Below, one piece after another: positions 5,405-22,767 of a DNA stretch of 40,386 nt (position 1 is its first letter; every line of letters begins with the position of its first letter). The position numbers were made by a program, and so were the translations under genes. The notes beneath the pieces were generated by a model. The model worked only from the letters and a program-made list of their open reading frames with translations. It had not been told where the DNA came from and did not search any database. This DNA is from Ignavibacteria bacterium RIFOXYB12_FULL_35_14 (GTDB lineage: Bacteria; Bacteroidota; Ignavibacteria; Ignavibacteriales; Ignavibacteriaceae): the NCBI GenBank assembly GCA_001803045.1, contig MHAR01000030.1, forward strand, positions 1 to 40,386, read 5' to 3'.

Positions 5405-6829
5405 ATGTTTAAAACAATCACTTTCATCTGCAATCAAAAAAAAATTGAGGCCACTCTTCATTCAGCCACCACAGTATTAGATTACCTTAGAAAGCATCAG
5501 CACTTAACCGGCACAAAAGAGGGATGCCGTGAAGGTGATTGCGGAGCTTGCACAGTTTTAGTCGGCACACTCTCCGGCAAAAAAGTTAAATATCAAAACG
5601 TCAATTCGTGTCTCTTGCCGATTGCTCAAGCTGAAGGTAAGCACATAGTTACAATTGAAGGACTGAATTCCTCTGATCTTTCCATCATTCAGCAATCGTT
5701 TGTTGATGAAGGTGGAACGCAATGTGGTTTTTGTACTCCAGGCTTTATTGTTTCACTGACAGGTTATCTTTTATCTTCCAACAATTATAATCTTGATGAC
5801 GCTGTGGATTCCATCGGCGGAAATGTTTGCAGATGCACAGGTCATACAACAATTAAACGTGCAGTTGATAAAATAATAAATGAACTTTCAGTTAAAAATT
5901 CCGCTGATAGTAATAATTTGAGTTCACTCATAAACCTGGGTATCATTCCTAAATATTTTGAAGAGATTCCAAAGCAGCTCACTGAAATAAAGAAGAAAAT
6001 TATTTCACTAGAATATGAACAAAGAGCAGATTTTCTAATTGCCGGTGGAACCGATTTATTTGTACAGAGAGAAGACGACCTTTTGAAATCGAATATAAAA
6101 TTTTTCTTCGGTGAGAACGGTGCTGATAGAATTTGGATCGATGGTAATCAATGCTGTATTGATGCAAGAGCAACCGTAAGCAATTTTGGTGATTCTGAAA
6201 TCATACAGAAATATTTTCCTGAGATGACAAACTTCATTCGACTATTTGGATCGCTACCAATACGCAACCGGGCTACTATCGGAGGGAATATAATCAACGC
6301 CTCACCAATTGGCGATATGACAATTATCCTGCTAGCATTAAATTCAACTCTTCATTTACAAAACAACAAAGCAACTCGGCAAGTTTCGCTTAAGGATTTT
6401 TTTACAGGATACAAAACTCTTGATAAGAAAGAGGATGAAATCTTAACTAAAATTACATTTGATATTCCGAAGCAAAATAATTTCTTTAATTTTGAAAAGG
6501 TCGCTAAGAGAATTCATCTTGATATTGCTAGTGTGAATACTGCAATGCTGTTAACAGTTGATGACAGAATTATTACTCAAGCAAATATTTCCGCCGGTGG
6601 TGTCTCACCAATTCCGCTTTATCTTTCTGAAATGCGTAAATCATTACTTGGTAAAAAAGTAAGTGAGGAAAATATTAGTGAAGCTATTGAAGTGGCACTA
6701 TCAGAAATAAGTCCTATCACGGATGTGCGTGGATCGGAAGAGTATAAAACGCTTTTGCTTAGACAATTGCTTCTTGCTCATTTTTATAAGTTATCACCCG
6801 AAATAATTCAAGCAGAAATTTTGTTATGA
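5405..6829 (+). CDS. xanthine dehydrogenase-like small subunit, 2Fe-2S + FAD fusion
   Basis: A 474-residue electron-transfer subunit of a xanthine oxidase-family molybdenum hydroxylase. Residues 1-85 are a plant-type 2Fe-2S domain (C41, C46, C49, C69). Residues 86-160 are the second 2Fe-2S domain (CGFCTPGF with C107 and C110; CRCTG with C142 and C144). Residues about 205-380 are the FAD domain (IAGGTDLF at 212-219, RNRATIGGNI at 287-296) and about 370-470 its C-terminal CO-dehydrogenase-flavoprotein domain. This is the S+M fusion seen in XdhA-type bacterial XDH. It overlaps the Mo-subunit gene by 4 bases (ATGA). With it, the enzyme would pass electrons from purine oxidation through Fe-S to FAD. 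Substrate not proven. Confidence 0.92.
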   Translation: MFKTITFICNQKKIEATLHSATTVLDYLRKHQHLTGTKEGCREGDCGACTVLVGTLSGKKVKYQNVNSCLLPIAQAEGKHIVTIEGLNSSDLSIIQQSFVDEGGTQCGFCTPGFIVSLTGYLLSSNNYNLDDAVDSIGGNVCRCTGHTTIKRAVDKIINELSVKNSADSNNLSSLINLGIIPKYFEEIPKQLTEIKKKIISLEYEQRADFLIAGGTDLFVQREDDLLKSNIKFFFGENGADRIWIDGNQCCIDARATVSNFGDSEIIQKYFPEMTNFIRLFGSLPIRNRATIGGNIINASPIGDMTIILLALNSTLHLQNNKATRQVSLKDFFTGYKTLDKKEDEILTKITFDIPKQNNFFNFEKVAKRIHLDIASVNTAMLLTVDDRIITQANISAGGVSPIPLYLSEMRKSLLGKKVSEENISEAIEVALSEISPITDVRGSEEYKTLLLRQLLLAHFYKLSPEIIQAEILL

Positions 6830-9129
6830 AAAATTACGATTGGATACAACACGTTCGGGGAGAATCGCTTTTTGTGGATGACATTACTCCGCCGGAAGGA
6901 ACTTTGCATGCCGCAGTTTTTTCATCTCCAATTGCGCATGGAAAAATTATCAACTTAGATCTTGAAATAGCAAAAAAATTAAATGATGTGATTGAAATTT
7001 TCACCGCTAAAGATATTCCCGGTGAAAATCAAATCGGTGCAATCATACCGGACGAACAGTTGTTAGCCGATGGTATTCTTGATTTCTGCGGACAACCAAT
7101 CGCAATTGTTGTTGCAAAAGATAATTTCTCGGCACATCAAGCGGTCAAACAAATCAAATTAGAGTTTCAAGAATATTCGGCCGTTACTGATGCTCGTGAA
7201 GCTTTTCAAAAGGGACAACTTATAATTCCCCCTCAAACTTTCTCTCTTGGTGATGCTGATTCTGCTTGGAAAGACTGCGATCTGATTGTGGAAGGTACTG
7301 CTGAATCAGGCGGACAAGAACATATCTATCTCGAAACTCAAGGCTCATTCGCATTTCCAGTGGAGGGTGGAGGAATTAAAATTATTTCCTCGACTCAAGC
7401 TCCAACAACTGTTCAAAGAGCAGCGGCAAGAATTCTTAATTTACCAATGAATAAAGTTGAGGTTGATGTACTTCGGCTTGGCGGCGGCTTTGGCGGTAAA
7501 GAAGATCAAGCTACTGCATGGGCTTGCATGACAGCACTCGCCGCATTCAAATTGAAAAGACCGGTGAAAATTATTTTAAACAGACAAGAAGATATTCGAA
7601 TGACCGGTAAACGTCATCCTTATTCATCCGATTTCAAAATAGGATTGACGAAAGAAGGCAAAATTTTAGCATACGAAGTAACGTTTTATCAGAACGCAGG
7701 TGCAGCAGCAGATCTTGCAACTGCAATTCTCGACAGAACTTTGTTTCACTGCACAAATTCATATTTCATTCCGAATGTGAAAGCAACTGCTTATTGCTGT
7801 AAGACTAATTTGCCTCCGAACACTGCGTTTAGAGGATTTGGCGGACCGCAAGGAATGTTCGTAATTGAAAGCGCCATTTATAAAGCTGCGGAAAAGTTAG
7901 GCGTTGATCCTATGGTCATTCAAGAAAAGAATTTATTAAGCGAAGATGATGAATTCCCATATGGCCAGAAGACAAAATATTGTATGGCCCGACCTAGCTG
8001 GAAAAAAGCAATAGGTAAATACAACCTTGGTGAAATGAAAAACCAGGTTGAGAAATTCAACCTTGAAAATAAGATTTTTAAAAAAGGATTAGCTTTAATG
8101 CCGATTTGCTTTGGCATTTCATTCACCAACACGATGTTGAATCAAGCTAATGCTCTTGTTCATGTTTACACTGATGGAAGTATTGGAATCAGCACCGGGG
8201 CAATTGAAATGGGTCAGGGTGTGAATATGAAGCTTCGGCAAGTGGCAGCGACGATTTTCTCCGTCGATATCAGCAGAGTAAAAATCGAAACAACAAACAC
8301 GAGTCGTGCTGCAAACACTTCTGCAACAGCGGCAAGCAGCGGCGCCGATCTTAATGGTAAAGCGGTTCAAATTGCCTGCAATAATATCTTAGAAAGACTG
8401 ATAAAATCTGCGCAGCAGGAGTTGAAGTCAAACGAAACAGACCAAATCGAAGTGAAGGATGAAATTGTTTATCTGAATGGTAATCAAACAGAATTGACAT
8501 GGAATATTTTGGTTCAGAAATCTTATGCTAAAAGAACGAGCTTATCCTCTCAAGCTCATTACGCTACACCGGGAATCCACTTTGACAAATCAAAAGTTAA
8601 AGGTGAGCCATTCGCTTATCATGTTTATGGTACTGCCATTATTCAGGTTACGGTTGATTGCCTGAGAGGAACTTATGAAATTGATTTTGTAAAAGTTGTT
8701 CACGATTTCGGAAAAAGCATGAATCCGATTATAGATCGAAGCCAGGCAGAAGGTGCGATAATGCAAGGCATCGGCTGGATGACGATTGAGGAAGTGATTT
8801 ACACGAAGTATGGGAAACTTTTAACTGATTCAATGTCAACTTATAAAGTACCTGATGTTTATTTCACTCCAAAAGAAATTGAAGTTGATTTCCTTGATAA
8901 TCCAAATCCTTCGGCAGCAATTTTCAATTCAAAAGCGATTGGAGAACCTCCGCTAATGTATGGAATAGGAATTTATTTTTCACTTTGTAATGCAATCAAA
9001 GCATTCAGATCCAATGCTGAAATTAAGAACTCTGCACCGATGACTAATGAAAAGCTTTTGTTGATGCTGTATGAACCTGCAGGCCAAAATTTGAAGCGTA
9101 AATTAAAAAATAAAATGACTGTGAAATAA
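6826..9129 (+). CDS. xanthine dehydrogenase-like molybdenum-binding subunit
   Basis: A 767-residue catalytic subunit. All residues I checked against bovine XDH are kept: Gln in GGQEHIYLE (Q164), Glu in GGGFGGKE (E226, equivalent to E802), Arg in AFRGFGGPQG (R336, equivalent to R880), and the catalytic Glu in KAIGEPPL (E707). E226 plus R336 is the pair that orients purine substrates in XDH, so a xanthine/hypoxanthine-type hydroxylase is a reasonable inference. Aldehyde oxidases usually lack this pair. Molybdopterin-loop motifs GAIEMGQGVN and TAASSGADLNGKAV are present. It is translationally coupled to the 2Fe-2S/FAD gene. No XdhC-type maturation gene is nearby. Cytoplasmic; no Tat signal. Confidence 0.92.
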   Translation: MKNYDWIQHVRGESLFVDDITPPEGTLHAAVFSSPIAHGKIINLDLEIAKKLNDVIEIFTAKDIPGENQIGAIIPDEQLLADGILDFCGQPIAIVVAKDNFSAHQAVKQIKLEFQEYSAVTDAREAFQKGQLIIPPQTFSLGDADSAWKDCDLIVEGTAESGGQEHIYLETQGSFAFPVEGGGIKIISSTQAPTTVQRAAARILNLPMNKVEVDVLRLGGGFGGKEDQATAWACMTALAAFKLKRPVKIILNRQEDIRMTGKRHPYSSDFKIGLTKEGKILAYEVTFYQNAGAAADLATAILDRTLFHCTNSYFIPNVKATAYCCKTNLPPNTAFRGFGGPQGMFVIESAIYKAAEKLGVDPMVIQEKNLLSEDDEFPYGQKTKYCMARPSWKKAIGKYNLGEMKNQVEKFNLENKIFKKGLALMPICFGISFTNTMLNQANALVHVYTDGSIGISTGAIEMGQGVNMKLRQVAATIFSVDISRVKIETTNTSRAANTSATAASSGADLNGKAVQIACNNILERLIKSAQQELKSNETDQIEVKDEIVYLNGNQTELTWNILVQKSYAKRTSLSSQAHYATPGIHFDKSKVKGEPFAYHVYGTAIIQVTVDCLRGTYEIDFVKVVHDFGKSMNPIIDRSQAEGAIMQGIGWMTIEEVIYTKYGKLLTDSMSTYKVPDVYFTPKEIEVDFLDNPNPSAAIFNSKAIGEPPLMYGIGIYFSLCNAIKAFRSNAEIKNSAPMTNEKLLLMLYEPAGQNLKRKLKNKMTVK

Positions 9130-9297: not shown

Positions 9298-10770
9298 ATG
9301 AACAACTGGAACTGGCAATTACAAGACAAATCTTTTCTTGAAAAATCAATTAAACGATGCAGAGAAAAAGAAATCATCCTTCCAACTTTCAAACAGTTAA
9401 AAGATCCCGAATCAATTCCGAAAAAAATTCAAGAGCAACTTGAAACTATTGATCTGAATGCACTCCATCCGTTAAATCTTTTTAGAATAAATTGGCGGAA
9501 TGATAAATCAACAGGGAAAATTGGGGAGATAAACTATTTGGAAATTCCAAGAGAAATTACCGGAGTAAAAGCAAGAATAATTGGACTAATCGGGAAATAT
9601 TTTCCGACCGGAGCGCACAAAGTCGGGGCAACTTATGGCTGCTTGGTTCCCTACTTAGTCACTGGGAGATTTAATCCCGAATACCACAAAGCTGTTTGGC
9701 CATCAACTGGAAATTATTGCAGAGGCGGTGCTTTCAACTCAGCTTTGCTTGCGGTACATGCTGTTGCAATTCTGCCAGAAGAAATGAGCAAAGAACGGTT
9801 TGATTGGCTCAGGGAAATAGGAGCAGAAGTTTTTGCAACTTATGGATGTGAAAGCAACGTGAAAGAAATTTACGACAAGTGTCATGAGTTAGAAAAGCAA
9901 AGTGATGAGTATTTAATCTTCAATCAGTTTAATCAATTTGGAAATTCAATCTGGCATTACAATGTGACAGGCTCAACGATCGAAACGCTGTTCAATCAAA
10001 TTAAAAAAGATGGACAAAGACTAAGCGGATTTGTCAGTGCAACCGGCTCAGCAGGTACAATTGGTGCAGGAGATTATCTCAGAGAAAAATTCCCTTTAAT
10101 AAACGTTACCGCGGCAGAAGCTTTACAATGCCCAACGCTACTGATGAATGGATTTGGCGCTCACCGAATCGAAGGAATTGGGGACAAGCATGTTCCGTGG
10201 ATTCACAATGTTAAAAACACAAATTCCGTTGCAGCAATTGATGACGAACAGCCTTTACGGATACTGCGATTATTCAATGAACCGGAGGGGCAAAAATATT
10301 TATCGCGTTTAGGTGTTGATGAGCAAACCATCAATAAGCTTCCTGATCTTGGAATTTCAAGCATAGCAAATCTCCTTGCTGCCATTAAGCTCACGAAATA
10401 TAATGAGTACAACGAAAACGATGTCATATTCACAATCTTTACTGACTCGTCAGATATGTACCAGTCGCGGTTAAAGGAAATGAATGATGGCTGGGGAAAT
10501 TATTCGTTAAACCAAGCCGGGATTGATTGGAATGTCGCATTGAAAAATCAAAGTATAGATTACTTCAAAGAATTATCATACTACGATAAGAAAGCAATTC
10601 ACAATCTAAAATACTTTACCTGGGTTGAGCAGCAAGGAAAAACCGTTGAAGAGCTCAACACTCAATGGTATGATGAAAATTACTGGAAAGAAAGATTTGC
10701 TGTCGTTCCCAAGTGGGATAAATTGATTGAAGAGTTTAATTCTGAATGTGGAATTGAAAAAAATTTGTAA
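9298..10770 (+). CDS. fold-type II PLP-dependent enzyme (cysteine synthase/TrpB-like), island-associated
   Basis: A 490-residue PLP enzyme of the tryptophan synthase beta superfamily. The Schiff-base lysine is K108 in PTGAHKVGAT, the carboxylate-binding loop is STGNYCRGGAFNS (136-148), and the phosphate-binding Gly loop is TGSAGTIG (249-256). It is about 90 residues longer than E. coli YgeX (2,3-diaminopropionate ammonia-lyase), and its lysine and Asn-loop motifs differ from YgeX, so I do not call it ygeX. Its place between Mo-hydroxylase and ssnA genes suggests it does a beta-elimination or replacement on an amino acid released by purine breakdown; this is inference. AGGAAC lies shortly before the ATG at 9298. 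Chemistry and substrate are unknown. Confidence 0.85.
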   Translation: MNNWNWQLQDKSFLEKSIKRCREKEIILPTFKQLKDPESIPKKIQEQLETIDLNALHPLNLFRINWRNDKSTGKIGEINYLEIPREITGVKARIIGLIGKYFPTGAHKVGATYGCLVPYLVTGRFNPEYHKAVWPSTGNYCRGGAFNSALLAVHAVAILPEEMSKERFDWLREIGAEVFATYGCESNVKEIYDKCHELEKQSDEYLIFNQFNQFGNSIWHYNVTGSTIETLFNQIKKDGQRLSGFVSATGSAGTIGAGDYLREKFPLINVTAAEALQCPTLLMNGFGAHRIEGIGDKHVPWIHNVKNTNSVAAIDDEQPLRILRLFNEPEGQKYLSRLGVDEQTINKLPDLGISSIANLLAAIKLTKYNEYNENDVIFTIFTDSSDMYQSRLKEMNDGWGNYSLNQAGIDWNVALKNQSIDYFKELSYYDKKAIHNLKYFTWVEQQGKTVEELNTQWYDENYWKERFAVVPKWDKLIEEFNSECGIEKNL

Positions 10771-12201: not shown

Positions 12202-14607
12202 ATGGATAATTCTTTCAACATAGTCGGTAAAGCAGTCATTAGGCAGGATGCTTTAGAAAAAGTAACCGGCAGAGCTAAGTTCGCTGATGATATTAACGAA
12301 CCCGGACAGCTTTATGGCGTTATGGTTCGAGTTCCAACTGTTCATGCAACGATTGATGAAATTGATTACTCTGAATTATTACGAGTCAAACCGGATTCAA
12401 TTATTGTTGATTCAACTGATATCAAAGGATCAAAAAAAATTGGAGCCATCCGACAAGACCAGCCGATTTTTTCTTTTGATAAAATTGTAACTCCCGGTGA
12501 TGTTATTGCAATGCTTGTTGGAGAATCAGAGGATGAGTTAAAATCGCTATCCAAAAAAGTAAAAATAAAATTCACCGAGCTGCCGGCTCTAACTGATCCC
12601 ACAAGATCTCTTGAACCAAATGCGCCAAAGATTCATCCCCAATATGAAAGTAATTTGATCGTTCACTACCCTCTCCGCAAAGGTGATGTTGAAAAAGGAT
12701 TTAAAGAAAGCGATTTCATTCATGAAGAAACTTACACCACTCAGCTTGTTGAGCATGCTTACATTGAACCGGAGACGGTGCTGGCAATTCCTCTCGAAGG
12801 AAATAAAGGAATAAAAATTATCGGTAGCATTCAAAACCCATTCACAGCCAGAAAAGTAGTTGCATCAGTTTTAAATTGGCCTCTAACAAAGGTTCGAATA
12901 GTCCAGGCAGAGTTGGGCGGATCATTCGGAGGTAAAGATGACACAATGAACATTCTTTCTGCACGTGCGGCAGTTGCGGCTTTAAAGATTGGCAAACCGA
13001 TAAAGATCCATTATTCACGCGAGGAATCAATTCTCGAATCATACAAACGGCATCCCTACATTTTAAAGTACAAAGTTGGCTGCATGAAGAACGGGAAAAT
13101 CATCGCAATGAAAATTGATATCCTTGCTGACGGCGGTGCGTATTCATCAATGAGTCCATTTGTGACATGGCGGAGCGTAGTTCAGGCAACTGGTCCTTAT
13201 GATATTGAAAATGTTTGGACAGATGTAAGAGCAGTCTATACTAACAATCCTTACACGGGTGCAATGCGCGGATTTGGCTCGCCGCAGCCAATCTTTGCAC
13301 AAGAGTCAATTATGGATGAAATAGCAATCAAGCTGAACTTAACTCCGGATGAGTTTCGAAGAATAAATGGTTTCAAAGCTGGTTCGTTTACTGCGAGCGG
13401 ACAGAAATTAGAGAATCACGATGTCAATCTTCTCGACGTTTTAGACACTGCAATTAAAGAAACTAACTTCACTTCAAAGTGGAAAGAGTACAAAAGTAAA
13501 ACAAGCTTCAATGGTTACCAGCTCGATAAAATTTCCGATACAAATGCTGAGCAGTTGATCCTAAAGAAAAAAGATTACATCAATCCGAATAAATTGCTTT
13601 GGAAAGGAATCGGACTTTCTATCAGCTATCGCGGATGTTCATTAGGTGCCGAGGGAATTGATGCAGCCGAAGCTTATCTCTCTGTTCAGAATGACGGCTC
13701 AGCTTACTTACTTTCCGGTTTAGCCGAAAATGGACAGGGCATGAGAACAACACATTCAATTATTGCCGCTGAAGTTCTTGGAATTTCACCCGATAAAATT
13801 TACTACTTAGAAACTGATACTGGTTTAATTCCAGACAGCGGCCCAACCGTAGCATCACGCTCGACCCTTATGGGGGGAGGTGCAGTGAAAGCCGCTTCCG
13901 ACATTCTTAGAAATCGTTTTGAGGATTTTTTAAGATTAGAATGGAAATTAAAATCACAATCCGAATTCATTTTCAAAGATGGTTTTGTTTCTGTGAATGG
14001 TAATCCTCAGCAAAAAATCTCGTTTTCCGATTTATGTTCATTAGCTTATAAAAACGGTATTTGCTTGGCTGCAATTGGCTGGTATAAAAGTCCTGAAGTA
14101 AATTGGGATGAGCATACCGGACAAGGTTCGGCTTACTTCACTTACGTGTATGGCTGTCAGGTTGCAGAAGTAACAGTTAACATTGGAACCGGACAAGTTT
14201 ATATCGATAAGATTACCGCTGTTCACAATCCCGGTAAAGTAATTAATCTACTTGGCGCTGAAGGGCAAGTCTATGGCGGAGTAACTCAAGGTGCCGGTTA
14301 TGGTTTATGGGAACAAGTAACAACAGATGGCGGGAAAATTCGTGAATTAAATTTCGATCAATATCTAATTCCCACTGCAAAAGATTTAAAGGAAATAAAA
14401 CCCGTCTTTGTTGAAGGCAAAGATGTTTATGGAGCCTGGGGCGGGAAATCTTTGGGCGAACCAACTCTCGAATTAACTTCTGCAGCAATCGCCAATGCAA
14501 TTAGAAATGCGACGGGAAAAAGATTTTACAATCTTCCGATAAATTTGGAGGAACTTCTTTTGCGCCGAAAACTATTTCCGAAAGATTTGAAGAGAGGAAG
14601 TTCGTAA
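12202..14607 (+). CDS. xdhD: XdhD-like molybdenum hydroxylase large subunit
   Basis: An 801-residue Mo subunit of a second xanthine oxidase-family enzyme. Motifs: GGSFGGKDD (about 240-247), AMRGFGSPQP with R356, DSGPTVASRST in the cofactor region, and catalytic Glu E753 in KSLGEPTLE. It differs from the first Mo subunit at two sites: the Gln of the GQEH motif is Val (V183 in QLVEH), and the Glu equivalent to bovine E802 is Asp (D246). This suggests a different substrate from plain xanthine. In E. coli xdhD sits with ygfM, ssnA and ygfK, the same partners as here. It overlaps the FAD gene by one base (TAATGA). No separate selenium-insertion genes are in the window. Confidence 0.88.
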   Translation: MDNSFNIVGKAVIRQDALEKVTGRAKFADDINEPGQLYGVMVRVPTVHATIDEIDYSELLRVKPDSIIVDSTDIKGSKKIGAIRQDQPIFSFDKIVTPGDVIAMLVGESEDELKSLSKKVKIKFTELPALTDPTRSLEPNAPKIHPQYESNLIVHYPLRKGDVEKGFKESDFIHEETYTTQLVEHAYIEPETVLAIPLEGNKGIKIIGSIQNPFTARKVVASVLNWPLTKVRIVQAELGGSFGGKDDTMNILSARAAVAALKIGKPIKIHYSREESILESYKRHPYILKYKVGCMKNGKIIAMKIDILADGGAYSSMSPFVTWRSVVQATGPYDIENVWTDVRAVYTNNPYTGAMRGFGSPQPIFAQESIMDEIAIKLNLTPDEFRRINGFKAGSFTASGQKLENHDVNLLDVLDTAIKETNFTSKWKEYKSKTSFNGYQLDKISDTNAEQLILKKKDYINPNKLLWKGIGLSISYRGCSLGAEGIDAAEAYLSVQNDGSAYLLSGLAENGQGMRTTHSIIAAEVLGISPDKIYYLETDTGLIPDSGPTVASRSTLMGGGAVKAASDILRNRFEDFLRLEWKLKSQSEFIFKDGFVSVNGNPQQKISFSDLCSLAYKNGICLAAIGWYKSPEVNWDEHTGQGSAYFTYVYGCQVAEVTVNIGTGQVYIDKITAVHNPGKVINLLGAEGQVYGGVTQGAGYGLWEQVTTDGGKIRELNFDQYLIPTAKDLKEIKPVFVEGKDVYGAWGGKSLGEPTLELTSAAIANAIRNATGKRFYNLPINLEELLLRRKLFPKDLKRGSS

Positions 14608-15482
14608 TGATACCTCAGTTCAAATACTATCGACCGAAATCCATCAACGAGTTAAAAAGCATTTTGGGTGATATGCAAGACAACTCGCGGATTCTTGCTG
14701 GTGGAACTGACATTGTTCCGGGATTCATTCAACAGTCAAGTCGTTTTACTTCAATTACAAATTTGATTGATATAAACTGCATTGCCGATCTGAAAGCTAT
14801 CAAAAATGTTGACGGGCAAGTTTTGATTGGGTCGGCCATTACGTTTGCCGAGATTATGAAAAATGAACTCATTCAAACGCATTTCCCATTGCTTACTAAA
14901 GCCGCTTCAACAGTTGGAAGCATACAGATAAGAAATAGAGCTACCGTTGTTGGCAACTTTGTAAATAATGCTCCTTGTGCTGACAGCGTTCCACCGCTTT
15001 TAGTTTACGATGCCTCCATAAAAATTATTTCACCTAACGGAGAGCGCAATATCCCGCTCAATGAATTTCTATTGAATCCTTATGAAACTCAGTTAAAGAA
15101 AAACGAGTGTGTCACCGAAATCATAATTCCTGCTCCTAAAGAAAATTTTATCGGAGATTTTTACAAGCTAGGAAGACGAAGCGCAGTATCAATTAGCCGG
15201 ATCTCGCTTGCATTTTTAATGCACGAAGAAAATAAATTTATTAAAGAATTTAAAATTGCAAGCGGTGCGATTACCCCCATTGGTAAAAGATTTTATGAAA
15301 TAGAGAACGCATTTGTGGGAAAAGAAATTTCTTCAGAAACTTTTATGGAGATTGCATCAACCCTTGGTGAAAAAGTTTTGGAGACTACTGGTTTAAGGTG
15401 GTCAACTGATTACAAGCTGCCCGTAGTTCAGCAAATGCTGTATCAACTGCTTGAGAGGAATGTGGGAGGGATTTCCGGATGA
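14607..15482 (+). CDS. ygfM: YgfM-like FAD-binding subunit of molybdenum hydroxylase
   Basis: A 291-residue FAD subunit (CoxM/KdhA type). LAGGTDIVPG (30-39) is the first FAD-binding loop and IRNRATVVGNFVNNAPCADS (about 109-128) the second; a C-terminal CO-dehydrogenase-flavoprotein domain covers about 175-280. It sits between the XdhD-like Mo gene (1-base overlap) and the 2Fe-2S gene (4-base ATGA overlap), so the three are translated as a set and form an L/M/S heterotrimer type. Electrons from the Mo subunit go through 2Fe-2S to this FAD; the downstream acceptor is not known, though YgfK is a candidate. Confidence 0.9.
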   Translation: MIPQFKYYRPKSINELKSILGDMQDNSRILAGGTDIVPGFIQQSSRFTSITNLIDINCIADLKAIKNVDGQVLIGSAITFAEIMKNELIQTHFPLLTKAASTVGSIQIRNRATVVGNFVNNAPCADSVPPLLVYDASIKIISPNGERNIPLNEFLLNPYETQLKKNECVTEIIIPAPKENFIGDFYKLGRRSAVSISRISLAFLMHEENKFIKEFKIASGAITPIGKRFYEIENAFVGKEISSETFMEIASTLGEKVLETTGLRWSTDYKLPVVQQMLYQLLERNVGGISG

Positions 15483-15937
15483 TTATCAACTTCAAAATTA
15501 ACGGAAAAGAAACCTTAATCAATCTAACCAAAAACAAACGATTGATTGATTTGTTGCGCGATGACTTGAAACTCACCGGAACAAAAGAGGGCTGCAGTAT
15601 TGGTGAATGTGGTGCATGCACTGTAATCGTAAATGGCAAAGCTGTAAACTCATGCTTAGTTCTAGCTCAGCAAGTTGATGAATGCGATGTCATAACGGTT
15701 GAAGGTTTAGCTGAAGGAAATAAATTAAGCGAACTACAGCAAAATTTTTTGAAATATGGAGCTATTCAATGCGGTTTCTGCACCCCGGGAATGCTGATGT
15801 CTGCTTATGCTTTGTTCTTAGAAAACCCCACACCCTCTCGTGAAGAAATAGAAACAGCTATCGAAGGTAATTTGTGCAGATGCACAGGTTACAAACCAAT
15901 CATCCAAGCAATAACTTCTACTGTGTCTGGGGAATAA
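15479..15937 (+). CDS. 2Fe-2S subunit of molybdenum hydroxylase
   Basis: A 152-residue iron-sulfur subunit. The N-terminal plant-type cluster uses C39, C44, C47 and C59 (CSIGECGAC ... C); the C-terminal helical domain has CGFC (C98, C101) and CRC (C133, C135). Length is normal for the separate small subunit of xanthine oxidase-family enzymes. It is the last gene of the plus-strand run and ends before a hairpin facing the convergent ygfK gene. In E. coli the equivalent Fe-S function near xdhD is not encoded by an adjacent dedicated gene, so the three-gene arrangement here is a complete enzyme. Confidence 0.92.
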   Translation: MIINFKINGKETLINLTKNKRLIDLLRDDLKLTGTKEGCSIGECGACTVIVNGKAVNSCLVLAQQVDECDVITVEGLAEGNKLSELQQNFLKYGAIQCGFCTPGMLMSAYALFLENPTPSREEIETAIEGNLCRCTGYKPIIQAITSTVSGE

Positions 15938-16021: not shown

Positions 16022-19000
16022 TTAACTAAGTAAGTAATGGTAATCACTTAAAATTTTTCCGGCAAGCTTTGTAAATCTAATTCGTTCTTCATCTTTATCT
16101 TTATCATAATCTAAACGCTCACCATTATTATAAAATTTCATTTTTTCAATCTTCGAATCAATCCTCGACACTAATTCAATTTCTCCGTTTCTTTTTAATA
16201 TATAGAATCCATCTTTTTGTGAATGATAAAATTCATATTCGTTTCTAAAAAGAGTTATTTTATCTTTATATGGTGAGCCAGCGTGGGGACAAAAAGTCTC
16301 GCAGTTACCACACTCATTACACATCCAATCAATATGCAGAATTTGATTTACATCTTTGAAATAATCTCCGTCAATTGTAATTAGTATGTTGGCACGATTT
16401 GGACAAACATCGACACACTTGTTGCATATGAAATTACACTCAAGACAGCGTGTTGACTCAAGATTTGATATTTGAGTTAAGGAAAAAATATTCCCCTTTT
16501 GTGCAGCTATTCTTTTCTTTCTTTGCTCTTTGTCAAAAAGATGCTGAAAACTTTTATCAAAAATAATATCAAGCTTTTCTTTTTTTATGATTGCCTCAGC
16601 AGCTTTCTTTCCATCAGCAATGGATTCGACAACAGTTGAAGGACCTCGCAAAGCATCCCCGCCAATGAAAACATTCTCAAGCAATGTTTCATTTGTAGCT
16701 ATATTCGTTTCAGCTTTTCCATATTTATTAATTGAGATTTGATTTTGACCGAGAATATCAAGATCAACTTTTTCTCCAATTGCTGAGATAATAAAATCAA
16801 TTTTATGTTCTTCAAATTCATTTCCAATCGAGACAACATTTCTACGTCCGTCGCTTCCAATTTCACCTAACTTCATTTTTTGAGAGCGTAAAATCTTACC
16901 ATCAAATTCAATTGGTAATAGAAGCTCTTTGAAAACGACACCATCTTCAATCGTATTGTCAAATTCTTCTTTATCTGCGGGCATGAATTCTTTTGTACGG
17001 CGGTAAAGTATGTAAACTTTATCAACGCCATCAATCCTTTTAGCAGCACGTGCTGCATCCATTGCCGAGTTGCCACCGCCAATTACTGCAACACTCTTAC
17101 CTAAAGCTATTTTATCTTTATGATGATACTTCCACAAAAAGTCTAAAGCGTTTATAACATTCTTGGCTTCTCCATTTAGATTAAGCTCTGTTGATTTGCC
17201 AGCACCAATTGCGATGTAAACATATTTGAATCCTTTTTGCTTAAGCTCTTCAACTGAAAAATTTGGATCAACATTAAACTCAAATTTTACTCCAAGCTGC
17301 TTTATGAATTCAACATCATTGTCTATTGCTGATTGTGGCAATCTAAAATCCGGAATAATATTTTGAACAACTCCACCCGCTTTATCGTGTTTTTCAAAAA
17401 CAGTTACATCAAACCCTGCTTGAGCTAAAAAGTAACTTGCTGCAAGACCCGATGGACCAGCACCAATTACCGCACATTTTATTTCATTCGATTTTTTTAA
17501 GTCTTTTTTATAATGTGCTAAAAATTCTTCTCTCCCCTTTTCCACAGCAATCTTTTTAAGATCGCGTATCTTCACCGATTCATCATAATCCCATCGCGTG
17601 CAATGAAACTGACATTGATGATCGCAGATATGTGCGGTGATACTCGGTAAAGCATTCTTAGAAATAATGACTTCGTATGCCTCTCGATACCTTTCTCCCT
17701 CAATCAGTTTAACGTATTCGGGAACATCTTGATGAATTGGACAAGCTACAACGCATGGTGCGGTAAAACAGTTAAAAGTTTCAAGCTTGGTTGGAATCTT
17801 TATTGATTCAACAAGACGAATTTCTTTTTTATAGTGCGAATTTATTAACGAATCATCTGCTAATTTTTTTAAATTCTCAAGATTAATTTTTCTGCTGGTA
17901 AAATCGGTTTGAAAACTTTCAGTAATGTTTCTCCCTATTTGATTTAAGCGGCGGTAACCTCCGGGTTTTAAGAGATCGGTCGCATACGTAACTGGATATA
18001 TTCCACACTTTAGAATAACCGGCGTGTTATAAACTGCGGCACCTCCGGAATATGAAATGCTTAGATTGCCGTTTAAAGCTTCAGCTAATTTCCATGCTGC
18101 ATTTATTGTAAGCGGGAAGAGTGATCGCCCAGACATGTACATTTCATCACCAGCCAGCATGTTCTTTCTGTTTTTAACCGGCAGTGTATTGGAAAGCTTT
18201 ACACCAAACCTTCGATTTATATTACCTGCAAAGTCTTGCAGCCGAGAGATTATTGAGACAGCACTCTCGAACTTCAAATCACTTTTAAATGAATGTTCAT
18301 CCAGTTCCACATTTTTGAAGCCGAGTATTTGGAGAATCTCATGAACTTTTTCATATCCAAGAAGTGTTGGATTTAACTTCACATAAGTATGCAGCTTTTT
18401 TTCTTCGAGTAAGTACTTAGTTATTACCTCAATCTCATCTGCAGGACATCCGTGCATTGTTGATAGTGTTACTGAGTTAGAAATTTTCGACGAAATATTT
18501 TTTATCGTATCATTTAACTTTGGCTTAACATCTAAACTTTGCGGGAATTTCCGGGATAATATTTCTGCGAAGCGATCACTTTCAATGAACTTCAACATTT
18601 TATCTTGATAAATTTTGAATGAAGGATTTTCGGTGGCATCAATCAATGAATTAATAAACGTCTGCATCTTATCGCCTTTTATTCCTTCAAGATTATAACC
18701 AACACTCATGTTAAAAATAAATCCGCGGGGAGAGCTTGAGTCGGGATACAGCAATTGTTTCAACAAGTGAAGAATCATCCATGCTTTCAAGTATTCGTCT
18801 AAGGATTCTTCTAGCCTTAACTCTTGAGACCACTCAACATTGTAACACTCATCCTGAGCATCAATACACGGCTTATCGATGTTTAAATCATCTTTTACCT
18901 GAACGGTTTTCAATTCAAAGAATCGCCCGCCAGCTAAATAAGAAGCAACAATGTTCTGTGAAAGCTGCGTATGCGGTCCGGCTGCTGGTCCGATAGGTAA

Positions 19001-19156
19001 ATCGAGCTGTTCGTCCAAAAAATGAAGAGACGAAATCTTTTTGAGTGAAAGAAAATCAATCGACGGGATTCCGAAAATCGAATCTTCTTGTGCATACTCG
19101 CTGAAAATCCATTTTAACAAGTGATCGAACCCGATTGTGCTCATTCGTTCTGCCAT
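16022..19156 (-). CDS. ygfK: YgfK-like flavin/iron-sulfur oxidoreductase
   Basis: A 1044-residue multidomain protein, close to E. coli YgfK (1032). Residues about 50-400 resemble a dihydroorotate/dihydropyrimidine dehydrogenase-type barrel (LPIGPAAGPHTQLSQNI; HGCPADEIEVITKYLL). Residues about 460-900 are a GltD-type NAD(P)H/FAD module: CFTAPCVVACP Fe-S segment near 465, FAD loop VIGAGPSGLAASYF near 560 and NAD(P) loop VIGGGNSAMDAARAAKR near 690. Residues about 905-970 are a 4Fe-4S ferredoxin domain (CLECNFICNKCVDVCP; CNECGNCETFCPHAG). It was named a putative selenate reductase subunit, but is now tied to anaerobic urate/purine catabolism. It is the only island gene on the minus strand. Domain content is clear; exact reaction is not. 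Confidence 0.92.
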   Translation of the reverse strand: MAERMSTIGFDHLLKWIFSEYAQEDSIFGIPSIDFLSLKKISSLHFLDEQLDLPIGPAAGPHTQLSQNIVASYLAGGRFFELKTVQVKDDLNIDKPCIDAQDECYNVEWSQELRLEESLDEYLKAWMILHLLKQLLYPDSSSPRGFIFNMSVGYNLEGIKGDKMQTFINSLIDATENPSFKIYQDKMLKFIESDRFAEILSRKFPQSLDVKPKLNDTIKNISSKISNSVTLSTMHGCPADEIEVITKYLLEEKKLHTYVKLNPTLLGYEKVHEILQILGFKNVELDEHSFKSDLKFESAVSIISRLQDFAGNINRRFGVKLSNTLPVKNRKNMLAGDEMYMSGRSLFPLTINAAWKLAEALNGNLSISYSGGAAVYNTPVILKCGIYPVTYATDLLKPGGYRRLNQIGRNITESFQTDFTSRKINLENLKKLADDSLINSHYKKEIRLVESIKIPTKLETFNCFTAPCVVACPIHQDVPEYVKLIEGERYREAYEVIISKNALPSITAHICDHQCQFHCTRWDYDESVKIRDLKKIAVEKGREEFLAHYKKDLKKSNEIKCAVIGAGPSGLAASYFLAQAGFDVTVFEKHDKAGGVVQNIIPDFRLPQSAIDNDVEFIKQLGVKFEFNVDPNFSVEELKQKGFKYVYIAIGAGKSTELNLNGEAKNVINALDFLWKYHHKDKIALGKSVAVIGGGNSAMDAARAAKRIDGVDKVYILYRRTKEFMPADKEEFDNTIEDGVVFKELLLPIEFDGKILRSQKMKLGEIGSDGRRNVVSIGNEFEEHKIDFIISAIGEKVDLDILGQNQISINKYGKAETNIATNETLLENVFIGGDALRGPSTVVESIADGKKAAEAIIKKEKLDIIFDKSFQHLFDKEQRKKRIAAQKGNIFSLTQISNLESTRCLECNFICNKCVDVCPNRANILITIDGDYFKDVNQILHIDWMCNECGNCETFCPHAGSPYKDKITLFRNEYEFYHSQKDGFYILKRNGEIELVSRIDSKIEKMKFYNNGERLDYDKDKDEERIRFTKLAGKILSDYHYLLS

Positions 19157-19513: not shown

Positions 19514-20698
19514 ATGAACCTAGCACAAACCATAAATGAAAAGGCAAAGCAATATCAAGATTATACAGCCAACAATCTCTCCGAATTAGTAAAAATAAAA
19601 TCGTTAAGCGCCAAGGAAGGTACAGTCGTTAAAAAGCTTAGGGAGATGATGGCAGAAGCCGGTTTCGATGAAATAAAGATTGACGGACTCGGAAACATTA
19701 TCGGACGATTGCGCAGCGGCAAAAAAATAATCGCAATTGATGGCCACATTGATACAGTTGATGTTGGGAACATTCAGAATTGGACATTCGATCCTTTTGG
19801 AGGTGAAATTAATAACGGATTTGTACACGGCCGTGGAAGCACCGATCAAAAAGGCGGAGTGGCTTCCGCAATTACAGCAGCAAGAATTCTTAAGGAAATC
19901 GGCTTACCAAAAGATGTTACGCTGTATGTTACCGGAACTGTCATTGAAGAAGATTGCGATGGACTTTGCTGGAAATACATCATCGAAGAGGATAAAATAA
20001 TACCTGATTGTGTAGTCGTTACGGAACCAACTAATTTGAATATATATCGTGGACATCGCGGACGAATGGAAATTGAAGTTTCGTTTTACGGAAGGTCAGC
20101 ACATGGTTCCGCTCCGGAAAGAGGAATTAACGCAATTTACATGGCTTCAAAGGCTGCTTTGGAAATTGAGAAACTGAATGAACGATTAGCTTTTGATGAA
20201 TTCCTCGGAAAAGGTTCTGTTGCTATTTCTGAATTTGTCTCAGGAAGCCCTTCGCTTTGTGCTGTAGCAGACTTTGCAAAAATCCATCTTGATAGAAGAT
20301 TGACCTGGGGAGAAAATAAAGAACTTGCGGTTAAAGAAGTCGAAGAGATTGTTAGAGACATGAATGCAAAAGTTGAAGTGATTAACTACAATGAGAAAGC
20401 ATTTACAGGCAAAGAATACGGAATGGAAAAATATTACCCAACATGGAAGCTTGAGGAAAATCATTCCGTGATTGAAACCGGGAAAAAAGTTTATAAAGAA
20501 CTTTTTAAAACCGATGCAGTCGTGGATAAATGGACATTCTCCACGAATGGTGTTACAATAAATGGAATTTATGGAATACCGGTAATTGGATTTGGTCCCG
20601 GCAACGAAGTCTTGGCTCATGCACCAGATGAGAAAGTACCAGTAGAACATCTAGTTAAAGCGAGTGCGTTTTACGCGATGTTTGTGATGTCGTACTAA
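19514..20698 (+). CDS. ygeY: YgeY-like M20 family metallohydrolase
   Basis: A 394-residue di-zinc hydrolase of the M20/ArgE/DapE family. The metal and catalytic residues are in place: H78 and D80 in DGHIDTVD, bridging D111 in GRGSTDQKGG, catalytic and ligand Glu pair E145-E146 in VIEED, EPTNLNIYRGHRGR for the Asp/Glu ligand and substrate region, and H369 in HAPDEKVP. Length is as in E. coli YgeY. In the urate/purine cluster it is expected to cut an amide or N-carbamoyl-type bond of a ring-opened intermediate; the precise substrate is not known from sequence. AAGGA precedes the ATG at 19514. It starts the second plus-strand run, which continues with the broken HrgA-like gene and ygeW. Confidence 0.9.
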   Translation: MNLAQTINEKAKQYQDYTANNLSELVKIKSLSAKEGTVVKKLREMMAEAGFDEIKIDGLGNIIGRLRSGKKIIAIDGHIDTVDVGNIQNWTFDPFGGEINNGFVHGRGSTDQKGGVASAITAARILKEIGLPKDVTLYVTGTVIEEDCDGLCWKYIIEEDKIIPDCVVVTEPTNLNIYRGHRGRMEIEVSFYGRSAHGSAPERGINAIYMASKAALEIEKLNERLAFDEFLGKGSVAISEFVSGSPSLCAVADFAKIHLDRRLTWGENKELAVKEVEEIVRDMNAKVEVINYNEKAFTGKEYGMEKYYPTWKLEENHSVIETGKKVYKELFKTDAVVDKWTFSTNGVTINGIYGIPVIGFGPGNEVLAHAPDEKVPVEHLVKASAFYAMFVMSY

Positions 20699-20752: not shown

Positions 20753-20780
20753 CAATTCTAAACTCACAAGGAGCTAGAAA

Positions 20781-21743
20781 ATGGCTTACACAATGCTTGA
20801 TTTTGCAGAAGATATTTTAGCAAAAGTTGAAAAGCCCCTTACCTACCAAGAAATTTGGGCGGCTGGAATGGAAAAAAATTTAACCAATAAATTGTCAATT
20901 ACTGGAAAGACTCCATGGCAAACATTAGGCGCTAGATTGTATGTGGATACAAAAGAAAACCCGAACACAAAATTTATTAAGGTGGGGAAAAATCCCGTTA
21001 GATTTTTCTTGGCTGCAAGAAGTTCTGAAGTTTCTCAAGACCTTATCGAAAAAATTAATTTAGAACAAAGAAAGGAAAAACGAGAATCTGATCATTATGA
21101 AGAACGAGATTTACATCCTCTCTTAACTTACTTCGCGTACTCTAATCCAGCGTTTAATCGCGGTCGAAATATATTCACAAAAACAATTTTTCATGAAAAA
21201 TCAAAAAAGAGCGGTTATAGCGAATGGTTACATCCCGATTTGGTTGGTTTCTATCTTCCTATTGAAGAATGGAACGAAAATCTAGTTGAGTTCAACCGAA
21301 TTTCTGATAATAATGCATTAAAATTATTTTCGTTTGAGTTATAGAAAAGCATTAATAAAGGAAATTACAGGGAAAATTATTTTCAGGCTGTTTCAAATTC
21401 ATCATGGGCACATGAAGGCTATTTGGTTTCTGCCCAAATAGTTCAAGATGATGATCTACTCGCCGAGTTGGAAAGATTAACTATGTCTTTCGGAATTGGA
21501 ATCATTCAGTTGGAGTTGAAAGATATTGATTCCTCTAAGGTATTATTTCCTGCAAGACAAAGACCCTCGCTCGACTGGGAGACCATGAACAAACTGACCG
21601 AACAGAATAAAGATTTCAACAAATTTATTAAGGATGTAAAAATAGACTTTAATTCAAAAGTAATTCATAAATCGGAATACGATCCAATAATTCCTAATCC
21701 AGAAGATTACATCAAAAAAAATATTTTTAGGACCAAGAAATAA
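20781..21743 (+). pseudogene. HrgA-like HARE-HTH protein interrupted by an in-frame TAG
   Basis: Two halves of one protein in the same reading frame. Residues 1-187 start MAYTMLDFAEDILAKVEKPLTYQEIW, a HARE-HTH winged-helix domain of the type linked to restriction and DNA-modification proteins (COG2958/HrgA), ending KLFSFEL. TAG follows at 21342-21344. The frame then continues KSINKGNYRENYFQAVSNSS and WAHEGYLVSAQI to the TAA at 21741-21743, about 320 codons in all. The residues on both sides of the TAG read as an unbroken family sequence, and TAG is one base from AAG (Lys), so a recent nonsense mutation or a sequencing error fits best. A good ribosome-binding site, AAGGAG (20768-20773), is kept. 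It splits ygeY from ygeW and has no obvious link to purine use. Confidence 0.85.
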
Positions 21744-21756
21744 TTTCGGAGTAACA

Positions 21757-22767
21757 ATGACCAACGCATTCAAAGGCAAACACTTTTTAACAGAAGACAA
21801 TTGGACAAAAGAAGAACTCGATATAGTTTTCAAAACTTCATTCGAGCTGAAAGAAAAATTTTATAACGAAGAGCCAACTCTCCACCTCCCTCACAAGACT
21901 TTATTCATGATGTTCTTTGAGCAGTCAACACGTACAAGAAACAGCATGGAAGCGGGAATGACACAGCTTGGTGGACACGCACATGATTTGACTCCCGACA
22001 AAATGCAGATCACTCACGGCGAAGTTGTAAAAGATACTGCAATAATTCTCTCACGAATGGGACATGGAATCGCATGCAGAAACTGTTTCTACGGAGCTGG
22101 TAAAAAATATCTTGATGAAATGGCGCAATACTCAAAGCGTCCTGTTATGTCTCTTCAAGATGATGTTTATCACCCGTTTCAAGGGCTGGCAGATTTGATG
22201 ACAATCTTCGAACACTTCGATAAAAATCCCAAGGGGTTAAAAGTAACCATCTCATGGGCATATGCAACAACTCATTCAAAGCCTTTGAGCGTACCACAAA
22301 CTCAAATTTTACTTTTCCCTCGGTATGGAATTAATGTTACGGTCGCTCATCCCAAAGAATTTCCTTTAAGCAAAAACATTGTTGAGAAAGCACAGCAAAA
22401 TGCAAAAGTCGGGGGCGGAAGTCTGAAATTCACGAGTAATATGGATGAAGCATTTGAAGGCGCGCAAATTGTTATTCCAAAAAATTGGGGCGGCTTCGGC
22501 TATTACGATGTTGATTATTACTTACAAAATGAAGATGCCTGCAAGAAAGAGATGAAGTTAAATTTGGAAAAGTATAAATCCTGGATTTGCGATGCCAAAC
22601 GAATTAATCTTGCCGATAAAAATGTTAAGCTGATGCATGCTCTTCCTGCTGATCGGGGAAATGAAGTGACCGATGAAATTCTGGATGATCCGAATATCTC
22701 AATCGTCTTCGATGAAGCGGAGAACCGTCTTCACACAGCTAAAGCAATTATGGCGCTGACGATGTGA
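21757..22767 (+). CDS. ygeW: YgeW-like carbamoyltransferase
   Basis: A 336-residue member of the aspartate/ornithine carbamoyltransferase family. The carbamoyl-phosphate loop STRTR is at 57-61 (FEQSTRTRNSMEAGMTQLGGHAHDL), and the second-domain motif HALPADRGNEVTDE starts at H294, where ornithine enzymes have HCLP. DDVYHPFQGLADLMTIFEHF marks the middle of the first domain. The overall pattern matches YgeW rather than OTC or ATC. In the purine/urate cluster it is expected to run toward phosphorolysis of a ureido compound, giving carbamoyl phosphate for ATP formation; no carbamate kinase is in the window. Start ATG at 21757 with GGAG upstream, 13 bases after the broken HrgA-like gene. Confidence 0.9.
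   Translation: MTNAFKGKHFLTEDNWTKEELDIVFKTSFELKEKFYNEEPTLHLPHKTLFMMFFEQSTRTRNSMEAGMTQLGGHAHDLTPDKMQITHGEVVKDTAIILSRMGHGIACRNCFYGAGKKYLDEMAQYSKRPVMSLQDDVYHPFQGLADLMTIFEHFDKNPKGLKVTISWAYATTHSKPLSVPQTQILLFPRYGINVTVAHPKEFPLSKNIVEKAQQNAKVGGGSLKFTSNMDEAFEGAQIVIPKNWGGFGYYDVDYYLQNEDACKKEMKLNLEKYKSWICDAKRINLADKNVKLMHALPADRGNEVTDEILDDPNISIVFDEAENRLHTAKAIMALTM

Follow-up and report, generated by a model that had tools for sequence, protein, structure and literature searches.

Gene content of the island

The window, the whole stretch of DNA analysed here, is the complete 40,386-base contig C30 of the Ignavibacteria genome G000 (4.1 Mb in 95 contigs, with a stated completeness of 100% and contamination of 0.24%); since it is one contig of 95, a gene absent from the window is not thereby absent from the genome. 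Positions 5405–22767 hold a two-gene xanthine dehydrogenase (XDH), SsnA, a three-gene molybdenum hydroxylase, YgfK, YgeY, a YgeW-like carbamoyltransferase and a 490-aa PLP enzyme that we call PALP490, every one of these enzymes being an intact open reading frame:

4299–5348, + strand: membrane protein, 349 aa; homologues in PALP490 loci L047, L050, L057, L123, L131 and L165
5405–6829, + strand: xanthine dehydrogenase small subunit ([2Fe-2S] + FAD); TIGR02963 357.5 bits (cut-off 467), 1–465 of 468; domains Fer2, Fer2_2, FAD_binding_5, CO_deh_flav_C
6826–9129, + strand: xanthine dehydrogenase large (Mo) subunit; TIGR02965 801.6 bits (cut-off 849.5)
9298–10770, + strand: PALP490, fold-type II PLP enzyme, CysK/CBS-like, not YgeX; PF00291 57 bits; 490 aa
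10854–12161, + strand: SsnA family aminohydrolase; NF005540 372.7 bits (cut-off 444); 30.5% to E. coli SsnA
12202–14607, + strand: second molybdenum hydroxylase, Mo subunit; MoCoBD_1, MoCoBD_2, Ald_Xan_dh_C; under all NCBIfam cut-offs
14607–15482, + strand: second molybdenum hydroxylase, FAD subunit; FAD_binding_5 151 bits; 30.7% to E. coli XdhB
15479–15937, + strand: second molybdenum hydroxylase, [2Fe-2S] subunit; Fer2_2 110 bits; 43.9% to E. coli XdhC Fe-S subunit
16022–19156, − strand: YgfK; TIGR03315 1340 bits (cut-off 835.3); 47% to E. coli YgfK over 992 columns
19514–20698, + strand: YgeY (M20); NF009555 528 bits (cut-off 321); 50% to E. coli YgeY
20781–21743, + strand: HARE-HTH gene, split by an in-frame TAG (21342–21344); PF05066 45.3 bits
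21757–22767, + strand: YgeW-like carbamoyltransferase, 336 aa; OTCace_N/OTCace

The genes named in a preliminary description of this DNA, made from its letters, are present as open reading frames where it had placed them, with family scores far past chance, but PALP490 (PF00291) had been overlooked inside the island. Its view of the host as Ignavibacteria-like agrees with the closest PALP490 locus among the best 80 of at least 580, which belongs to an Ignavibacteriaceae MAG (86% identity). YgfK and YgeY score above their curated cut-offs; SsnA falls below its own, yet this is its best model, 244 bits above the next non-SsnA one (128.5). The 349-aa membrane protein, for which we found no meaningful family match in Pfam or NCBIfam, is a possible member of the island. 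The HARE-HTH gene, whose reading frame is open on both sides of the TAG, probably lies outside the pathway.

The identification of a YgeW homologue stands in part. The enzyme reaches 185 bits against a YgeW cut-off of 453 (33.6% to E. coli YgeW), and its ornithine carbamoyltransferase (OTC) score is higher than its YgeW score, still under the OTC cut-off. A phylogeny against the purine-cluster clades had been suggested, and for YgeW, the one gene to which it was applied, the window copy falls together with E. coli YgeW at a support of 94/91, short of the level that the tool stars, and apart from the OTC and ATC of G000 itself. A role as ArgF or PyrB was rejected, because G000 encodes a true OTC on C85 (440 bits, cut-off 281) as well as a true ATC on C69 (324 bits, cut-off 237).

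The two molybdenum hydroxylases and the pathway genes outside the island

The first XDH had been assigned to xanthine and the second hydroxylase to another specificity, and the active sites are consistent with both assignments. In the XDH large subunit, E226, R304, F338, F433 and E707 align with E803, R881, F915, F1010 and E1262 of human XOR, which we take to be the active-site Glu, Arg, two Phe and the catalytic Glu; all five residues are kept, and the curated family cut-offs are narrowly missed. In the Mo subunit of the second hydroxylase these positions are occupied by D246, R324, F358, L481 and E753; three of the five are kept and two are changed, which makes a specificity different from that of the first XDH plausible. 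The labels XdhD-like and YgfM-like did not hold for this enzyme: its subunits resemble E. coli XdhA/B/C (27.9/30.7/43.9%) more than XdhD (24.4% for the Mo part), and its FAD gene matched XdhB, not YgfM, at E 1e-5. Glu606 has been proposed to steer E. coli XdhD, as outlined in PMC12507026. There is no Glu at that position in the second hydroxylase, and the E. coli stretch aligns poorly there; we rejected Glu606 as a marker of a urate reductase, the alignment being uninformative.

Among solved structures, nicotinate dehydrogenase comes closest to the second hydroxylase (264 bits). This match, the two changed XOR positions and the absence of the Glu606 feature would suit an island that degrades another N-heterocycle (nicotinate-like, a modified purine or a hydantoin) and not urate. 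We consider this unlikely: XOR scores nearly as well (260 bits), the adjacent two-gene XDH has a complete xanthine site, YgfK and YgeY pass the curated cut-offs of proven urate genes, and a related cluster from Acidobacteria (L172) includes a homologue, at 56%, of UacT, the urate carrier. We propose the second hydroxylase (12202–15937) as a candidate urate/yanthine reductase.

Most of the parts that had been listed as missing turned up elsewhere in G000. A carbamate kinase over its cut-off lies on C85, adjoining the true OTC; an XdhC family gene and a MocA-like gene lie on C17, beside a ThrC-like gene; and a dihydropyrimidinase (640 bits), the sole hydantoinase-family match over cut-off in G000, lies on C47 within a complete-looking reductive pyrimidine set (PreT-PreA-dihydropyrimidinase). 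The latter follows the same chemistry logic at a separate locus, and we infer that its hydantoinase may also serve purine breakdown. A UacT-type permease had also been listed as missing: G000 has two PF00860 permeases, whose best match is GhxQ (about 33%), not UacT. Since PF00860 also matches in 11 of 14 control genomes, these permeases give weak support.

The absence of ygeX and hyuA was borne out as far as YgeX has no match at E 1e-30 in G000 and hyuA is absent from the island, where 83 bases separate PALP490 from SsnA; YgeX, however, appears to have been replaced and not lost. A hyuA homologue sits between PALP490 and SsnA in L123, the closest relative among the best 80 of at least 580 loci. 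Together with the interrupted HARE-HTH gene, this could be read as decay, hyuA having been lost and the remaining genes forming no working route. We find this reading hard to credit, since all island enzymes have intact open frames, most relatives also lack hyuA (11 of the 33 loci of a smaller PALP490 set have one, within the stretch covered) and G000 has the dihydropyrimidinase. It is further disfavoured by the C. difficile HyuA, which according to the account in PMC12507026 cleaves both ring-opening products.

PALP490, the ThrC-like enzyme and YgeX

PALP490 contains the motif FPTGAHK, from which K108 is the likely PLP lysine. It stays under every curated cut-off, reaching 105.6 bits with the cysK model (cut-off 351) and failing both diaminopropionate ammonia-lyase models (14.0 against 276 for NF006058, 11.8 against 274 for TIGR01747). 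The best PDB folds for its AlphaFold2 model (pLDDT 87.6) are beta-cyanoalanine synthase (E 1.6e-16) and cystathionine beta-synthase (CBS). It shares the fold of the cysteine synthase/CBS family of fold-type II PLP enzymes but differs in its identity of about 24%, its extra N- and C-terminal regions and its length of 490 aa. A plasmid search returned only two distant relatives, from Bosea and Rhizobium.

PALP490 could on these grounds be a sulfur-handling enzyme, a cysteine beta-lyase or synthase acting, for example, in molybdenum cofactor sulfuration for both hydroxylases: in fold and sequence it is nearest to CysK, CBS, beta-cyanoalanine synthase and H2S-producing enzymes, it adjoins the XDH genes in the island, and the Rhizobium relative directly follows a TauE/SafE gene while the Bosea relative lies about 7 kb from one. 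We hold this to be very unlikely, as PALP490 co-occurs with YgeY in 33 of its 34 genomes, and as L149, L150 (21-kb stretches) and L184 (4.8 kb) combine PALP490 with carbamoyltransferase homologues and carbamate kinase with no molybdenum gene seen in those stretches.

Searching with PALP490 matched at least 594 stretches, of which at least 580 were confirmed; locus counts for this set rest on the best 80. Titles among these best 80 of at least 580 name Bacteroidota, Ignavibacteria, Elusimicrobiota, Acidobacteriota, Cloacimonadota, Spirochaetota and others, and groundwater, bog and marine samples among other sources. One carrier of the cluster is Candidatus Syntrophosphaera thermopropionivorans, at locus L187. 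At least one other pathway-type gene lies near PALP490 in 31 of the 33 loci of the smaller set and in 59 of these 80, and none lies beside it in 2 of 33 and 21 of 80, respectively. Neighbours were counted at E 1e-10 and 70 bits within the stretch covered with family homologues included, so that GltD-like, OTC/ATC-like and other amidohydrolase genes may count as YgfK, YgeW and HyuA; the two sets are not independent, sharing at least five contigs (L127/G172, L128/G047, L131/G349, L135/G152, L154/G224). Several class-level relatives have only a GltD-like match in place of a full YgfK, and L140 has a PreA-type (UacX-like) enzyme with a GltD-like protein. YgeY was absent at E 1e-80 in 10 of 43 genomes searched (L143 was left out of this search, and L137 was left out of alignment A4 for a stop codon in its translated stretch); these 43 genomes, like the 59 described below, were reached via their loci and carry no completeness figure. 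A literature search for Ignavibacteria with urate or purine genes gave nothing relevant by title among the matches listed.

Three observations bear on the replacement of YgeX. Firstly, no genome among 395 of the phylum has YgeX over the cut-off (a control on 14 genomes recovers E. coli), and PALP490 almost always accompanies this YgeX-less version of the pathway: PALP490 and YgeY are each found in 34 of the 395 genomes, 33 having both, one PALP490 only, one YgeY only and 360 neither. The ThrC-like enzyme is found at E 1e-60 in 33 of the 395, all of them with PALP490. This distribution led us to reject it as the housekeeping threonine synthase. Threonine synthase is the best model for the C17 enzyme, which falls just under one cut-off (TIGR00260, 161.5 against 167.1) and well under others (NF006050, 226.4 against 303), and a modelled relative from L170 shares the threonine synthase fold, with 37% identity to the Aquifex structure. 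Secondly, a ThrC-like enzyme of at least 424 bits occurs in 52 of 59 further PALP490 genomes, and a diaminopropionate lyase homologue of at least 360 bits in five of the seven PALP490 genomes that lack it, against one of the 52 that have it; both lines were set in this analysis, at gaps in the scores (424.8 to 323.7 and 363.8 to 250.4). Over 93 pooled genomes the exclusion between the two gives p = 0.003 (Fisher, related genomes counted as independent), and it is not strict: G424 has both, and a ThrC-like gene is accompanied by a YgeX homologue of 437–511 bits in G031, G070, G124, G349 and G357, of 302–313 bits in G055 and G247, and of about 250 bits in G422, G441 and G442. Thirdly, in the Bacteroidota locus L162 the gene directly after PALP490 passes NF006058 (416.7 over 276) and TIGR01747 (321.9 over 274), its genome, G414, gives no ThrC-like match, and the same slot is held by a ThrC-like gene in 14 other loci. 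Since lyase and ThrC-like enzyme share this slot, the latter is likely the stand-in for YgeX and PALP490 an extra step.

Our first hypothesis had been that PALP490 itself is the diaminopropionate ammonia-lyase, a direct replacement of YgeX, with the ThrC-like enzyme in another pathway role. It shares the Pfam family PF00291 with YgeX, lies inside the island, and co-occurs near-perfectly with YgeY in a phylum where YgeX does not pass its cut-off; a 43% relative on the Bosea plasmid lies near RidA (in the E. coli annotation, enamine/imine deaminase), which fits a beta-elimination. The hypothesis was weakened by the ThrC-like enzyme, which co-occurs equally well and shares its slot with the true lyase. 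In addition, L162 has a curated lyase adjoining PALP490, nine of the 59 PALP490 genomes also carry a lyase homologue, so that PALP490 is not simply its substitute, and the lyase model gives PALP490 just 14 bits. We keep it as a rival that is rather doubtful but deserves to be taken seriously.

A proposed variant of the reductive urate pathway

Elucidated recently in gut bacteria, with enzymes of E. coli and C. difficile, the reductive urate pathway is being pursued against gout, as PMC12507026 presents it. The gene set fits that pathway, in line with the purine/urate reading of the preliminary description. We estimate a probability of about 0.68 that the island specifies the greater part of a purine/urate pathway of the reductive, oxygen-independent kind, with the ThrC-like enzyme for the last step and PALP490 as an addition. 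What we observed is gene content, homology, patterns of co-occurrence and a swap of genes at one position; from these we infer all reactions, the hydroxylase substrate and the roles of the PLP enzymes. XDH (5405–9129) would convert hypoxanthine/xanthine to urate and the three-subunit hydroxylase (12202–15937) urate to yanthine; YgfK, as the putative dihydro-yanthine-forming reductase, would reduce the ring and SsnA would open it. The second ring, for which the island has no gene, would be opened by a hydantoinase, probably the C47 dihydropyrimidinase. The two ureido groups would then be taken off by the YgeW-like enzyme, working with the carbamate kinase of C85, and by YgeY as the proposed ureido-group hydrolase, leaving 2,3-diaminopropionate. 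The final step, taken by YgeX in E. coli, would most likely fall to the ThrC-like PLP enzyme (C17), and PALP490 may be a racemase or a stereospecific beta-lyase acting on the same C3 amino acid.

Compared with the E. coli cluster as described in PMC12507026, the locus is alike in YgfK, SsnA, YgeY, the YgeW-like enzyme and two molybdenum hydroxylases, and the genome in carbamate kinase, XdhC family, MocA-like and dihydropyrimidinase genes, which lie outside the island. In contrast, G000 has no YgeX match, and PALP490 and the ThrC-like enzyme instead; its second hydroxylase is XdhABC-like, not XdhD-YgfM; its YgeW-like enzyme is shorter and below the YgeW cut-offs; the island has no hyuA and the genes are spread over several contigs. 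The UacX/UacY variant of C. difficile, in the same account, likewise has single steps swapped for unrelated enzymes, whereas in the window YgfK and a YgeW-type enzyme are retained and it is the last step that appears replaced. The new part, judged from sequence, would be the replacement of YgeX, and the whole would be a new form of reductive uric-acid breakdown. More tentatively, and at somewhat less than even odds, this may be a second widespread version of the pathway outside gut Pseudomonadota and Bacillota, in which a ThrC-like lyase displaced YgeX and PALP490 performs a step that the E. coli scheme lacks, for instance racemising diaminopropionate or albizziin or cleaving one of them stereospecifically.

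If true, a version with two PLP enzymes would mean that many uncultured phyla also recycle purines anaerobically, and would raise the question of which diaminopropionate stereoisomer is made and which enzyme uses it. PALP490 together with the ThrC-like gene would then be a marker from which the trait could be predicted even where YgeX searches find nothing.

Gene content of the island and its molybdenum hydroxylases

Contig C30, which is the window in full, belongs to a genome of 4.1 Mb in 95 contigs. The purine island claimed in the preliminary description is real and was for the most part read correctly, its genes being present at 5405-22767:

5405-6829 and 6826-9129, xanthine dehydrogenase (XDH), two genes
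9298-10770, PALP490, a PLP enzyme of 490 residues
10854-12161, SsnA
12202-14607, 14607-15482 and 15479-15937, three-gene molybdenum hydroxylase
16022-19156, minus strand, YgfK
19514-20698, YgeY
20781-21743, HARE-HTH (PF05066) gene with an in-frame TAG, between ygeY and the ygeW-like gene
21757-22767, YgeW-like carbamoyltransferase

YgfK and YgeY score above the curated thresholds of their families. SsnA, the YgeW-like gene and the two XDH subunits fall short of theirs, yet no other family comes nearly as close to SsnA and XDH as their own. Compared with the E. coli K-12 cluster, identity is 47% for YgfK, 50% for YgeY, 33.6% for YgeW and 30.5% for SsnA, and the second (three-gene) hydroxylase is nearer to XdhA than to XdhD. 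The reading frame of the HARE-HTH gene is open on both sides of the TAG. A membrane protein of 349 residues without a family match (4299-5348), possibly a transporter part, has homologues in PALP490 loci L047, L050, L057, L123, L131 and L165.

PMC12507026 demonstrates, using enzymes from E. coli and C. difficile, conversion of urate to yanthine by XdhD, ring reduction and opening by YgfK or UacX and then SsnA, and later steps by HyuA, YgeW or UacY, YgeY and finally YgeX, which yields pyruvate; UacX and UacY replace YgfK and YgeW in C. difficile. A passage of PMC12990295 treats the stereochemistry and order of ureido cleavage as unsettled, and ygeW, ssnA and xdh genes were tied to purines earlier in part of PMC4016543. 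The main text of PMC12507026 contains neither the string "bacteroid" nor "ignavibacter". The island is a variant of this known reductive urate pathway, and its unexpected part is a pair of PLP enzymes tied to the pathway: PALP490 and a threonine-synthase-like (ThrC-like) enzyme encoded on contig C17.

XDH residues Glu226, Arg304, Phe338, Phe433 and Glu707 align with Glu803, Arg881, Phe915, Phe1010 and Glu1262 of human xanthine oxidoreductase (XOR), which we take to be active-site residues. The second hydroxylase keeps Arg324, Phe358 and Glu753 and has Asp246 and Leu481 at the remaining two positions; this change at two of the five positions agrees with the specificity difference previously claimed and, as judged from the alignment, fits a purine-type site of altered specificity. 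Among solved structures, the second hydroxylase matches nicotinate dehydrogenase best (264 bits, against 260 for XOR), and XdhD Glu606 has no counterpart in it, the E. coli stretch there being poorly alignable. We propose that XDH would oxidise xanthine to urate and that the second hydroxylase would then reduce urate at a different carbon; if so, the two steps would amount to a net isomerisation.

Parts encoded elsewhere and variant loci

For most of the parts described earlier as missing, a match was found elsewhere in the genome: carbamate kinase, an XdhC family protein, a MocA-like protein and two PF00860 permeases. The absence of hyuA from the island stands. Carbamate kinase on contig C85 (372.6 bits, cut-off 358.25) may be shared with arginine metabolism, since it adjoins a true ornithine carbamoyltransferase (OTC). 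The XdhC family member (123 bits with PF13478, whose cut-off is 29.7) and the MocA-like protein (115.7 bits, below the cut-off of 186.45) are grouped with the ThrC-like enzyme on C17. The two PF00860 permeases (contigs C93 and C47) each best match GhxQ, at about 33-34%, and the family also occurs in 11 of 14 control genomes. C47 encodes a dihydropyrimidinase (639.7 bits, cut-off 393) and, at loci L118 and L119, comprises PreT-like, PreA, dihydropyrimidinase, amidase, aminotransferase, semialdehyde dehydrogenase and NCS1 carrier genes, an apparently complete set for reductive pyrimidine breakdown. The PALP490-SsnA gap of the island measures 83 bases, whereas in L123, the closest named relative and an otherwise identically ordered locus, a HyuA homologue lies between the two genes; one is present in 11 of 33 phylum-set PALP490 loci, any homologue above 70 bits in the stretch searched being counted, and the L052 copy is allantoinase/hydantoinase-like.

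In a tree of 38 carbamoyltransferases, which carries a warning of long branches, the window gene groups with Ignavibacteria-side copies (100/100), and these join class-level relatives and E. coli YgeW at an unstarred fork (94/91). ArgI and PyrB of E. coli lie elsewhere in the tree, as do the OTC and aspartate carbamoyltransferase (ATC) of this genome. In PALP490 loci the gene is either of this form or a true YgeW (57-69% identity to E. coli), an alternation suggesting the same job.

Loci L146, L149, L150 and L184 combine PALP490 with diverged carbamoyltransferase homologues (that of L150 groups with ATC) and carbamate kinase; no SsnA or molybdenum genes were seen in their retrieved stretches, and the set may be an independent module that handles compounds like diureidopropionate. 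In class-level relatives (L140, L063, L065-L067) a GltD-like protein takes the place of full YgfK, followed in L140 by a PreA-type (UacX-like) dehydrogenase over cut-off, which is matched in 7 of 33 phylum-set PALP490 loci. YgfK is apparently split or shortened in L069, L070, L148 and L178, with separate matches beside a distinct 2Fe-2S/molybdenum hydroxylase.

Two PLP enzymes and the YgeX step

Across 395 phylum genomes, PALP490 relatives (E 1e-40) and YgeY over cut-off each occur in 34, and 33 have the ThrC-like enzyme at E 1e-60; PALP490 shares 33 genomes with YgeY and likewise 33 with the ThrC-like enzyme. Three genomes break the pattern: G322 lacks YgeY and has a PALP490 truncated at the end of a contig, G146 has YgeY without PALP490, and G152 has PALP490 without ThrC-like. 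YgeX over cut-off was found in none of the 395, the same search detecting E. coli among 14 control genomes; sub-cut-off homologues occur in 10, 7 of them with PALP490. A species-genome scan confirmed at least 580 PALP490 loci, the best 80 of which, from many phyla, were kept. YgeY is present at E 1e-80 in 33 of 43 genomes reached through PALP490 loci (32 over cut-off), and three of the other ten hold a diverged homologue (30-34%) inside the locus (L159, L172, L180). Counting any homologue above 70 bits (GltD-like, OTC/ATC-like and other amidohydrolases included), at least one other pathway-type gene accompanies PALP490 in 59 of the best 80 of at least 580 loci, at least two in 42 and none in 21. 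The neighbourhood survey of PMC12507026 scored YgeX through Pfam PF00291, which would not separate it from either PLP enzyme; among the open-access matches listed, no title or abstract opening ties either family to the urate pathway.

To separate the two candidates, we searched 59 PALP490 genomes for the ThrC-like enzyme and diaminopropionate lyase. The former, at 424 bits or more, is present in 52; a lyase homologue scoring 360 bits or higher occurs in 5 of the 7 genomes lacking it versus 1 of the 52 (p = 2e-5; 5e-4 including weaker homologues; 0.003 pooled with the 34 phylum genomes), p-values that treat related genomes as independent. In L162 the gene directly after PALP490 exceeds two curated diaminopropionate ammonia-lyase cut-offs, and among the best 80 of at least 580 loci the ThrC-like gene fills that slot in 14 others (L145, L157, L158, L160, L164, L169, L177, L181, L188, L191, L192, L195, L197, L200). 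With this shared slot and the tendency of the two enzymes to exclude each other across genomes, diaminopropionate is a likely intermediate in these clusters and the ThrC-like enzyme the strongest candidate to stand in for YgeX, PALP490 probably having a further function. Contrary to replacement, a ThrC-like gene coexists with a YgeX homologue in L172 and G424, with one of 437-511 bits in G031, G070, G124, G349 and G357, and with weaker ones in G055 and G247 (302-313 bits) and G422, G441 and G442 (about 250 bits).

Cysteine synthase, cystathionine beta-synthase and beta-cyanoalanine synthase are the best matches of PALP490, both by its AlphaFold2 model (29 rows, pLDDT 87.6) and by its profile. 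A 43% relative lies on Rhizobium and Bosea plasmids (L280, 13965-15464; L281, 14070-15404), and on both plasmids its 14-kb flanks contain M20 and TauE/SafE exporter genes, joined in Bosea by RidA. These flanks hint at a beta-lyase or sulfur role; for PALP490 itself we consider a sulfur role, which the TauE/SafE neighbours favour, improbable. The model of the ThrC-like enzyme, built for the L170 protein (22 rows, pLDDT 93.2), is nearest to threonine synthase, then to dehydratases and serine racemase. E. coli YgeX accepts both diaminopropionate isomers, as stated in a passage of PMC12507026, and part of PMC12990295 proposes an R configuration for the ureido intermediates. Two enzymes for one non-stereospecific YgeX would be sensible if one were a racemase or an isomer-specific lyase.
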